A stretch of 64,000 bases of DNA from contig NZ_FCNV02000010.1 of the NCBI RefSeq assembly GCF_001544615.1, positions 168,792 through 232,791 on the forward strand, in the 5' to 3' direction. Positions 61,044 through 63,459 of the stretch are shown piece by piece. The DNA is from Caballeronia concitans. GTDB lineage: Bacteria > Pseudomonadota > Gammaproteobacteria > Burkholderiales > Burkholderiaceae. Every line of letters begins with the position of its first letter. Within the stretch, counting starts at the first letter, position 1. Below the pieces are notes generated by a model. The model saw only the letters and a program-made list of their open reading frames with translations. It was not told where the DNA came from and did no database searches. A program made the translations under genes and the position numbers.

Positions 61044-61214
61044 TTAAGACGGTGTCGCCTTGGTGATGGCGCCCGTGATGCCGGCCCACAGGTTGGTGAT
61101 CGTGCTCGAGAACGAGGTGGTGGCCGCGACCAGCGCGATCACGACGATACCTGCCAGAATGGCGTATTCCATCGCGCTGACACCGCGCTCGTCGCGCACG
61201 AAGGCCTTAATGAA
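61044..61214 (-). pseudogene. flp: Flp pilin gene interrupted by an IS1111-type element (3' part)
   Basis: The minus strand encodes 56 codons starting FIKAFVRDERGVSAMEY and ending WAGITGAITKATPS, then TAA. This is the mature Flp pilin with its prepilin cleavage site (ERG before VSAMEY) and hydrophobic helix (AILAGIVVIALVAATT). The codon just upstream is a TAG inside the insertion element. The ATG and first codons (MQN) lie on the far side of the element at 62581-62589, after a GGAAG ribosome site. Joining the two gives MQNFIKAFVRDERGV, a normal Flp start. In this strain no pilin can be made from this copy. Confidence 0.9.
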
Positions 61215-61222
61215 CTAATAGG

Positions 61223-61234
61223 ATGGTCCGCCCC
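61223..61234. repeat. Left subterminal inverted repeat of the IS
   Basis: ATGGTCCGCCCC, the exact reverse complement of 62567-62578. Confidence 0.92.
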
Positions 61235-61289
61235 TCTCGTCACTGAATAGCCAAGTCCGGTGCGATAGGCGTTTCTGAGGAGGTGTGTT

Positions 61290-62339
61290 ATGAATCAATC
61301 TGTTAAGCCCGTGGTGACCCGTATGGGCATCGACATCGGAAAATTCGCGTTTCATGTCGTCGGGCTCGATTTTGCCGGCAAACCGGTGTTCAGAAGCCGC
61401 TTCACCCGGGAACGCCTTATTGAATTTCTGGCGCGTGCTTCACCCACCGTTGTGGGCATGGAAGCCTGCCCGGGTAGCAACTGGCTGGCGCGCAAAGCTG
61501 CCGCGTGTGGTCACGAAGTCAAGATAGTCCCCGCGCAATTCGTCAAACCGTTCGTGAAGTCCAACAAGACAGACATGATCGATGCGGAGGCAATTGCTGA
61601 AGCGATTTCACGTCCTACGATGCGCTTTGCCCAACCGAAAACAGAAGCCCAGCTCGATTTACAAGCGCTACATCGGGTGCGGCAACGACTGGTCTCCAAC
61701 AAGACGTCGATCATCAATCAGGCTCGGGCCTTTCTGCTCGAATACGGTCTCACGATCAGTGCCGGCGCTGCACACTTTGTCCGCCACATCCCGTCGATTC
61801 TCTCTGACGACGAGAATGGGTTGACACCATCCATGCGCAACCTGCTTCAGGAATTGTGGCAGGAATATCGTTCCATCGAGGCTCGCCTGCTTCAACTTCG
61901 ACGTCAAATCGAAGCGATCGCCGCCGCTGACGACGCTGCCACTCGATTGACATCAGTGCCGGGTATCGGTCAACTGACGGCAACGGCCATTACCGCTTTT
62001 GCCGGCACGGGAACCCAGTTCAAATCCGGCAGGCACCTGGCGGCCTGGCTTGGATTGGTGCCGAAGGAGTTCTCGACTGGGGGAAAACAGCGTCTGCTCG
62101 GTATCAGTAAGCGCGGAAATCCTTATTTGCGCAAGCTACTGATTCATGGCGCTCGTTCCTGCGTCCTTCATTTAGATAGGACAAGAGACCATCTTGGCGT
62201 ATGGATAAACCAAATGGAAGCCAAGGGAGTGCACCGAAACAAGGTCATTGTCGCACTTGCCAACAAGCTTGCACGAATTGCCTGGGCCGTTCTTACCCGC
62301 CAAAGCGCGTTCTATCTCCGACAACCGCAGCAACAATAG
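61290..62339 (+). CDS. IS110/IS1111 family DEDD recombinase (transposase)
   Basis: A 349-residue enzyme. The N-terminal RuvC-like domain holds the DEDD residues Asp15 (MGIDIGKFAF), Glu58 (VGMEACPGSN), Asp95 and Asp98 (NKTDMIDAEAI). The C-terminal Transposase_20 domain has LTSVPGIGQLTATAITAFAG and SGRHLAAWLGLVPKEFSTGG with the serine used as nucleophile in this family, then RLLGISKRGNPYLRKLLIHG. These recombinases use a bridge/seeker RNA to choose target sites. The start has GGAGG 10 bp before the ATG. All catalytic residues are intact, so the element should be active. Confidence 0.95.
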   Translation: MNQSVKPVVTRMGIDIGKFAFHVVGLDFAGKPVFRSRFTRERLIEFLARASPTVVGMEACPGSNWLARKAAACGHEVKIVPAQFVKPFVKSNKTDMIDAEAIAEAISRPTMRFAQPKTEAQLDLQALHRVRQRLVSNKTSIINQARAFLLEYGLTISAGAAHFVRHIPSILSDDENGLTPSMRNLLQELWQEYRSIEARLLQLRRQIEAIAAADDAATRLTSVPGIGQLTATAITAFAGTGTQFKSGRHLAAWLGLVPKEFSTGGKQRLLGISKRGNPYLRKLLIHGARSCVLHLDRTRDHLGVWINQMEAKGVHRNKVIVALANKLARIAWAVLTRQSAFYLRQPQQQ

Positions 62340-62566
62340 GCGCTTTTTATAGATCTTCTCGTTTGCTTGTCTGCACTGGTGACGAAACAGCTCGACGGCG
62401 TTCGGTAAACCCGCATGCAAAAACGCGGCCCTCGTGGTCGGTCGAAGTTATTGGGAACTGGGCGCGCTTATCCCATCATGGCCTTGCCGCCAAAAGCGGC
62501 TGACTCGCGAGAGGCCGGATACATTTACGCAAACTGCTTCGCTTGCCTGTGCTCGCTTGCAAACCC
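62340..62566 (+). ncRNA. Predicted guide (bridge/seeker) RNA region of the IS
   Basis: IS1111-group elements encode a noncoding RNA between the transposase stop and the right inverted repeat, and this 227-bp gap is that place. At 62411-62428 CCGC and GCGG frame a 10-nt loop ATGCAAAAAC. Loop plus one flanking base (CATGCAAAA, 62414-62422) is the exact complement of the plus-strand DNA just outside the right end (TTTTGCATG, 62582-62590). That is what is expected of a right-target guide. No left-target or donor match could be recognised by eye. Region is well supported; exact RNA ends are unknown. Confidence 0.6.
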
Positions 62567-62578
62567 GGGGCGGACCAT
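62567..62578. repeat. Right subterminal inverted repeat of the IS
   Basis: GGGGCGGACCAT, the exact reverse complement of 61223-61234. Confidence 0.92.
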
Positions 62579-62580
62579 AC

Positions 62581-62589
62581 ATTTTGCAT
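62581..62589 (-). pseudogene. flp: First three codons of the interrupted flp pilin
   Basis: Read on the minus strand, ATGCAAAAT (MQN) follows AAGGAAGCAACC, a good ribosome site. It is cut by the IS and continues at 61214 with TTC ATT AAG (FIK). The reading resumes in frame if the element is removed. Confidence 0.8.
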
Positions 62590-62955
62590 GGTTGCTTCCT
62601 TGAAAGGGAGTGAGAGGAACGGCTTCAGGCGCTGCAGGGGTTGCAGGGGTTGCTGACGGTTGAAGCATATCCATCACCGCGGCAATCCAATTCGTCGAAC
62701 AGGAGGCGGAAACCGGCCCATTTCCAGACTGCTCGGCGGTGGGGTGGATAGGCCGTTTATCGGCAGAAACCCGCAGGTCTTTAATGCGATTCGTGGTTGC
62801 CTTTCGGCATCGGTCGGAACGACGCTGGCGGGCGCCGCAAGCGTCGAGGAAACGGATTCGCGCAATCGTTTGCGCGGGGCGTTTTCCGTTGAATGGCCAC
62901 GGGCACATCCGTTGCTCAATCGGTCAATGCGACATCTTTCACAAGGAGTACCGAC
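62590..62955. other. Upstream region of the flp-tad operon and of the H1-like gene
   Basis: A 366-bp divergent region. It should hold the promoter of the tad operon (minus) and of the lysine-rich protein gene (plus), but I see no clear -35/-10. A 9-bp tandem repeat TGCAGGGGT occurs at 62633-62641 and 62642-62650. On the minus strand a reading frame ending SATPATPAAPEAVPLTPF leads to the pilin start and, without the IS, would stop at a TAA overlapping the pilin's first codons. Its upstream half looks like noise, so I do not call it as a gene. Confidence 0.4.
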
Positions 62956-63459
62956 ATGCCGGAAAAGAAAACCGTCGAGCGCGCGCACAAGGCGAAGCGC
63001 GAGGGCAAGTCAGCGAGCACGCAGGCGGGCGCGTTCGTGAAGGAGCAGATCGATCACATCCGCGAGGGCAAGCACGGCGCGAAGTCGGCGAAGCAGGCGA
63101 TTGCGATCGGCCTGTCGGAAGCGCGGCGCTCGGGCGTCAAGCTGAAGACGCCGAAGAAGGGCGAGGCCTCCGAAAGCACGCGCAAGAAGGCCGCGCAGGA
63201 TACGAAGGCCGCGCATCGCAAGACGAAGAGCCCCAGCACCGAATCGAAGGCGAAGCGCTCCGCGACGTCGACGCGCGTGCTGAAACGGGAAAGCACGAAG
63301 GCGGCGTCGCACAAGTCGCTGTCGAAGCAGGCGCATGCGAGCGCGAGCCGCCGTTCCGCCGCCGACCGCTCCGCATCGGCGAAGAAGGGCTGGGAGACGC
63401 GTCGCGCGCACGCGGCGGGCAAGAAGGGCGGGTCAGCTTCGCGTCACGCGTCGCGGTGA
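62956..63459 (+). CDS. Lysine-rich histone H1-like protein with N-terminal DUF6496-type domain
   Basis: A 167-residue, highly basic protein from the ATG at 62956, which has AAGGAG upstream; the reading back to 62893 is unsupported. The N-terminal 60 residues (KREGKSASTQAGAFVKEQID then SAKQAIAIGLSEARRSGVKL) match short plasma-membrane or DNA-associated DUF6496 proteins. The rest is a KSxxT/KAAxx low-complexity tail like histone H1 C-termini (KKAAQDTKAAHRKTKS). It probably binds DNA or RNA. It is monocistronic. Confidence 0.8.
   Translation: MPEKKTVERAHKAKREGKSASTQAGAFVKEQIDHIREGKHGAKSAKQAIAIGLSEARRSGVKLKTPKKGEASESTRKKAAQDTKAAHRKTKSPSTESKAKRSATSTRVLKRESTKAASHKSLSKQAHASASRRSAADRSASAKKGWETRRAHAAGKKGGSASRHASR

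Follow-up and report, generated by a model that had tools for sequence, protein, structure and literature searches.

A complete insertion sequence of the IS1111 type (61216-62581, 1366 bp) was found to interrupt codon 3 of an flp pilin gene in the window (the whole 64,000-nucleotide stretch of DNA that was analysed). It is considered very probable that this element relies on a guide RNA encoded downstream of its transposase gene, that two guides within this RNA specify the start of flp, and that these guides were naturally re-aimed from a site in IS3-type elements. In such a mechanism the IS1111-type transposase would be steered by the downstream RNA, whose two guides would recognize opposite strands: the 5' guide (CATGCAAAAAC) the top strand on the right side of the cut, and the 3' guide (GAAGTT) the bottom strand on its left side, both guides together specifying GAAG|TTTTTGCATG, the start of the pilin gene. 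The RNA would be transcribed and loaded into the transposase, as for seekRNAs and bridge RNAs, which bind the transposase and are required for transposition. The transposase would then perform the cutting, and the change of guides would have preceded the insertion.

Anatomy of the insertion sequence and the interrupted pilin gene

Features described here lie on the forward strand unless indicated otherwise. The left end of the element begins with the 7-bp terminal extension TAATAGG (61216-61222), the length seen in the IS1111 group, which is identical or nearly identical in most relatives having a left end. It is followed by a subterminal inverted repeat (ATGGTCCGCCCC, 61223-61234), the counterpart of which at the right end (GGGGCGGACCAT, 62567-62578) precedes the 3-bp terminal extension ACA (62579-62581). 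The repeat of 12 bp lies within the 7-17 bp of the IS1111 group, a group whose right extension is 3 bp. Two relatives (L047 and L112) were observed to have an altered-looking left extension, with CACCATTA in place of TAATAGG before the left repeat.

The transposase (61290-62339, 349 aa) possesses the Pfam domains DEDD_Tnp_IS110 (PF01548) and Transposase_20 (PF02371), and the segment GLVPKEFSTGG was judged by eye to fit the IS1111 motif GL-P----S(t)G. Transposases of the group are of the DEDD type and 330-350 aa in length, with PF02371 as the C-terminal domain. Non-coding DNA extends for 242 nt from the transposase stop (ending at 62339) to the end of the element at 62581, or for 227 nt (62340-62566) if counted only as far as the right subterminal repeat, which starts at 62567, and is predicted to encode the seeker/bridge RNA. 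Only 74 nt lie upstream of the transposase, the longer region being downstream as in the IS1111 group. The ends, Pfam domains and 242-nt downstream region together support the identification, made in a first-pass annotation of the window, of an IS1111-type element with an RNA downstream of its transposase. Reading of the sequence further predicts that a promoter, TTGCAA-17-CATAAT, would form at the circle junction. Both ends and the transposase frame are intact.

The body of the interrupted flp gene lies on the reverse strand (61044-61215); it was identified with Pfam (Flp_Fap, E 6.6e-9 over 51 aa) and aligned with intact homologues. The left target half, ATGAAC (61210-61215), reads on the opposite strand as flp from codon 3 onward, and the right half, TTTTGCATG (62582-62590), reads on the opposite strand as the start of flp, giving GAAC|TTTTGCATG at the cut in the host gene. 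Intact flp genes of congeners cross this junction with no bases gained or lost (for example L070, also ATGCAAAA|GTTC), and comparison of the flanks with these genes revealed no target duplication, as is the case for the IS1111 group. Adjoining the interrupted gene, an open frame for a small basic protein rich in lysine and alanine was observed at 62956-63459.

Fold of the RNA and position of the guides

Relatives of the element were sought in plasmids and in genomes representing one strain per species, and 71 raw matches yielded 46 distinct copies, the window copy included. Plasmid loci were taken from 15 of the 94 records of one listing and 3 of the 195 of another. The set excludes L037, which has no right end, and loci lacking the anchor motif (L060/L114, L123 and L139 among them). 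In L123 (G459) the guide region is gone and the copy is split by another insertion of approximately 0.9 kb. An alignment of the RNA region was made from 37 distinct sequences (mean column identity 82%), leaving out copies that lack the 5' anchor (L062, L064, L065, L111, L124), are identical in this region (L131, L140), are chimeric upstream (L051) or have a misplaced start (L135).

RNAalifold, along with pair counts over the 37 RNAs, supports two helices, P1 of 9 bp and P2 of 3 bp, and a hairpin P3 of 4 bp, P2 being separated from P3 by an internal loop. The 5' arm of P1 (62398-62406) pairs with 62457-62465, with 97.3% of cells paired and changes on both sides in five of nine pairs. The 5' arm of P2, CCC (62410-62412), pairs with GGG at 62453-62455, with all cells (100%) paired and changes on both sides in two of three pairs. 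The 3' arms of the two helices together occupy 62453-62465. P3 (62427-62439) is formed by 62427-62430 with 62436-62439 and lies between the two guides. Across the whole fold 90.5% of cells were paired, and the covariation score was 0.366 compared to 0.186 in shuffles (0 of 500 as extreme), these whole-structure figures having been calculated with a helix GGCC (columns 109-112) placed one column off, leaving two of its four pairs unformed, while the RNAalifold register is correct. Versions of the fold slid along the alignment reached at most 47.5% paired, and measures counting pairs or pair types were less extreme (6 and 19 of 500 shuffles). The single-sequence fold of the window RNA differs from the consensus; its stability did not exceed that of shuffles (z -0.14), and it is uninformative. 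No match to Rfam was obtained for the non-coding RNA up to an E value of 1.

The 5' strand of the internal loop reads CATGCAAAAAC in the window (62414-62424) and mostly C-AAAAAA-G or C-AAAAAAA in relatives. On its 3' strand the window has GAAGTT (62444-62449, in the sense of the target's top strand), where relatives have CCATTT, CCACTT, CAGGTT, GAAGCTT and others. A conserved fold with guides in an internal loop is a property of seekRNAs and bridge RNAs, as is complementarity of the guides to both target strands, which was found here as an exact match of 9 nt for the right guide and a match with one mismatch for the left. The first-pass annotation had recognized 62414-62422 as the right-target guide, which stands, but had placed it in the loop of a hairpin, CCGC-ATGCAAAAAC-GCGG (62411-62428). 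The letters of this hairpin are correct; it is not the conserved fold, where its CC is part of the helix formed with 62453-62455, and its last GG part of a separate hairpin formed with 62436-62439. As these bases are split between P2 and P3, the right guide is placed on one strand of the internal loop, namely the 5' side. The left-target guide, not found by eye at that time, was identified as 62444-62449 with backing from the relatives.

Candidates for donor guides, which in seekRNAs and bridge RNAs match the ends of the element, were also noted. The sequence CCCATCATG (62472-62480) agrees at 7 of 9 positions with the CCTATTATG wanted for the left end and is a weak candidate, while the 6-nt ATACAT (62519-62524) may correspond to ATACA|T of the circle junction and so to the right end. 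Relatives offer little useful variation for this comparison.

The match between the right guide and its flank

Segment 62414-62422 (CATGCAAAA) is the exact reverse complement of the 9 nt immediately outside the right end of the element (TTTTGCATG, 62582-62590). Random 9-mers drawn from the window (20,000 draws) and sought on the complementary strand of the non-coding region matched in 0.155% of cases, approximately 1 in 650, and the earlier estimate of once in several hundred was accordingly sound. The chance on either strand was 0.75%, a figure that includes draws out of the non-coding region itself. The match is weaker than it appears, since most relatives share the CAAAA of the guide and have a T-run in their flank, leaving only about four to five of the nine matched bases specific to the window copy; the comparison with relatives is the stronger evidence. 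Among other TTTT sites in the window, 2 of 250 matched 9 bases, both of which would, by their letters, be the other strand of the loop itself. The 9-mer TTTTGCATG occurs 52 times in the 6.17-Mb host genome.

Most relatives lie at IS3-type sites, and guides follow flanks across the family

The right flank begins with at least four T in 39 of the 46 copies, the exceptions being L055, L061, L062, L128, L131, L134 and L138. Flanks were searched using tblastn with seven OrfA-side and three OrfB-side peptides drawn from the same set of copies. Right flanks matched an OrfA-side peptide of another copy in 41 of 46 cases, 36 of these within 5 bases of the junction; L117 matched only its own peptide and L042 (E 0.001) was borderline. 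No match to the seven OrfA-side peptides was found for the right flanks of the window copy, L043, L061 and L065. Left flanks matched an OrfB-side peptide of another copy in 13 of the 20 copies having a left flank, with no match to the three peptides for the window copy, L033, L036, L042, L050, L056 and L127. For ten flank peptides from nine copies, the best Pfam families were HTH_Tnp_1 (six), HTH_21 (three) and HTH_28 (one).

IS3 elements carry a frameshift signal of the A6G type at the junction of OrfA and OrfB. On the coding strand, an A-run followed by G (A6G or A7G) was found at the junction in 6 of 17 distinct two-flank pairs (L034, L045, L056, L059, L117 and L127). Many relatives in Burkholderiaceae and rhizobia (e.g. 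L034, L045, L056 and L136) were observed at the A-run of an IS3-type OrfA/OrfB junction and matching guides.

Agreement between guides and flanks was scored as the longest common stretch, with each copy's own flanks compared to shuffled flanks (5000 shuffles). For the left guide, 17 distinct guide/flank pairs reached a summed match of 78, a value attained by 1 of 5000 shuffles (mean 60.3); when the window copy was left out, the sum was 75 against 57.6 (again 1 of 5000); L042 was retained here despite its atypical left end. For the right guide, 36 pairs gave 246 against 226.1 (3 of 5000), all of these shuffles treating related, non-independent sequences. Clear left-guide matches include TCCATTT of L033 (TCCAT|TT at its site), ACCATTT of L130 and L136, CCACTT of L045 and CAGGTT of L035, and clear right-guide matches include CGAAAGC of L128 and GTCAAAAAAGC of L056. 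Matches of merely 3 nt were seen for the left guides of L034, L042, L056, L058 and L127, and of 3-4 nt for the right guides of L132, L061, L052 and L134. The CGAAA guides of L128 and L138 accompany TTTCG flanks. L132 carries a guide of the CGAAAGC type with a disagreeing TTTTTTG right flank, and is perhaps a recombined or recently changed copy. A guide one A longer than the T-run of its flank also occurs in relatives (A6/T5 in 3 of 37, A7/T6 in 5 of 37). The right guide of the window copy fits its own target best of the 36 (9 nt, followed by 8 nt for L136 and L133), while the contiguous match of its left guide at the host site is 3 nt (GAA, one mismatch, then TT).

The guides of the window copy fit the start of flp

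Read jointly, the two guides give GAAGTTTTTGCATG, the other strand of which is CATGCAAAAACTTC. A scan of the genus (58 genomes, that of the host among them) gave three occurrences of this 14-mer, all of them at the start codon of an flp gene, and two of a reversed control pattern; as the 14-mer was assembled after the congener flp genes had been seen, the count is support and not a blind test. Of 26 rows of intact congener flp genes, eight contain the 11-mer CATGCAAAAAC, equal to the whole right guide, and three (L073, L078 and L082) contain CATGCAAAAACTTC, in which the left guide is matched over 6 nt and the overlap of the guides at the cut agrees. The fit to this part of flp proposed earlier is supported, with the qualification that the guides match three congener flp starts (11 and 6 nt) better than the host's own. 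At the host site neither guide agrees with the C on the left side of the cut, and a run of 4 T faces 5 A in the guide. Elsewhere in the host genome no other exact GAANTTTTGCATG was found; with one mismatch it occurs at 20 sites (control 7). Uninterrupted host-genome sites resembling the 14-mer comprised one with one mismatch (C11) and 19 with two (control 17).

In the 37-row alignment, inspection by eye showed neither CATG before the A-run nor the whole of GAAGTT in any row but that of the window. The left guide is less particular to the window copy than this suggests, since GAAG (although not GAAGTT) is also present in the left guides of L117, L119, L120, L128, L132 and L138.

Direction of the change and search for further copies

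As most relatives have A-run guides and lie at the A-run of an IS3 OrfA/OrfB junction, the guides of the window copy appear to have been changed naturally. A tree was built from 23 transposases, without short or duplicate rows. In it the sister of the window copy is L041/L033 (support 100/97), whose right flank is of the IS3 OrfA type, and the surrounding group of 11 rows consists mostly of elements at IS3 sites (support 90/98, drawn open). With the window copy nested among IS3-site relatives, the simplest reading of the tree would be that IS3 is the older target and flp the new one. On a broader scale, it is considered reasonably likely that a clade of IS1111 elements in Burkholderiaceae, rhizobia and others targets, by means of its guide RNA, the A-run at the OrfA/OrfB junction of IS3 elements, in the region of their frameshift signal, which would be hard for IS3 elements to change, and that one member switched both of its guides to the start codon of flp, fitting the gene of congeners over the host allele.

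The guide type of the window is known from one copy. The host genome contains, besides the window copy, just two short distant matches and no second copy. No copy with the same guides was seen among the best few candidates per genome, whether in the genus (58 genomes, with that of the host), in the family (398 genomes, one per species) or in three further genera (65, 144 and 11 genomes), nor among the plasmid matches listed. The junction pattern GACCATACATTTTN{0,2}GCATG was found in the 398 family genomes for the window copy alone. Viral contigs did not contain the 19-mer of the loop and gave no match in a protein search, and no copy was found in phages and E. coli. A related RNA, with TTTTTTG as its flank, was observed on one viral contig, which is not counted among the 46 copies.

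Alternative explanations

The element may simply prefer T-runs, carrying a generic A-run guide, in which case the fit of CATG and GAA to flp would be coincidental. The prevalence of A-run guides and T-run right flanks among the relatives, the family-wide CAAAA, the presence of GAAG in six other left guides and the guide of L130, with its accidental 8-nt match to the flp site, are all in keeping with this. It is nevertheless judged unlikely, as CATG before the A-run and GAAGTT are each confined to the window row of the alignment and fit three congener flp genes in contiguous matches of 11 and 6 nt in register, and as left guides track left flanks across the family, with the CGAAA guides of L128 and L138 (not that of L132) accompanied by TTTCG flanks. 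An old insertion at an off-target T-run, directed by an IS3-type guide that later drifted by chance toward flp, would account for the imperfect fit at the host cut and for guides that suit some congener flp genes better than that of the host. Random drift would however rarely produce the two contiguous flp matches, and the intact transposase frame and ends also speak against this history, which is regarded as highly improbable.

The CCGC/GCGG hairpin could still be the functional guide structure in the window copy, given that it can form in this sequence. This is very doubtful: the two helices that take up its bases in the family fold are both intact in the window, and its fourth pair was found by eye to be absent from the other 36 aligned rows.

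Comparison with known RNA-guided insertion sequences

Among the listed titles and abstract openings of openly accessible journal papers, none was found to report IS1111 elements in flp or at the frameshift region of IS3. The downstream guide RNA of IS1111 elements is already known (PMC11187229, PMC11208160), and what is new is an example with an apparently changed target, flp. In this example the old target class, the new target and the changed guide bases of an RNA-guided recombinase that appears to have been naturally re-aimed can all be read from sequence, and with the 46 related copies it could be tested how long guides are and how far mismatches at the cut and differences in run length are tolerated.

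Longer right guides, of 7 instead of 4 bp, are reported for bridge RNAs of the IS110 group in a study that includes IS621 (PMC11208160). The window RNA resembles that of IS621 in having an internal loop whose left and right target guides share a core, and possibly in a second loop for the donor ends, for which it offers a candidate only. It differs in that the RNA is encoded downstream, the order of the guides is reversed and the subterminal repeats are long (PMC11208160).

A close likeness is to the IS1111 group with seekRNA, represented by ISEc11, ISXne4, ISKpn4 and ISPa11 (PMC11187229). Shared properties are the downstream non-coding region, subterminal repeats, a 7-bp left extension, the lack of target duplication, a top-strand guide located 5' of the bottom-strand guide, and guides that overlap in the target (PMC11187229). 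Elements of the group form a circular intermediate with a promoter at its junction (PMC11187229), and TTGCAA-17-CATAAT is what the window element would form there. In contrast to that group, the target of the predicted RNA in the window is the flp start codon, and most relatives lie at IS3 OrfA/OrfB junctions. The same study describes natural re-aiming for ISEc11/ISXne4, and a further likeness is to ISEc21 of the IS110 family, the target of which is a conserved spot in transposase genes of the IS3 family (PMC11187229).
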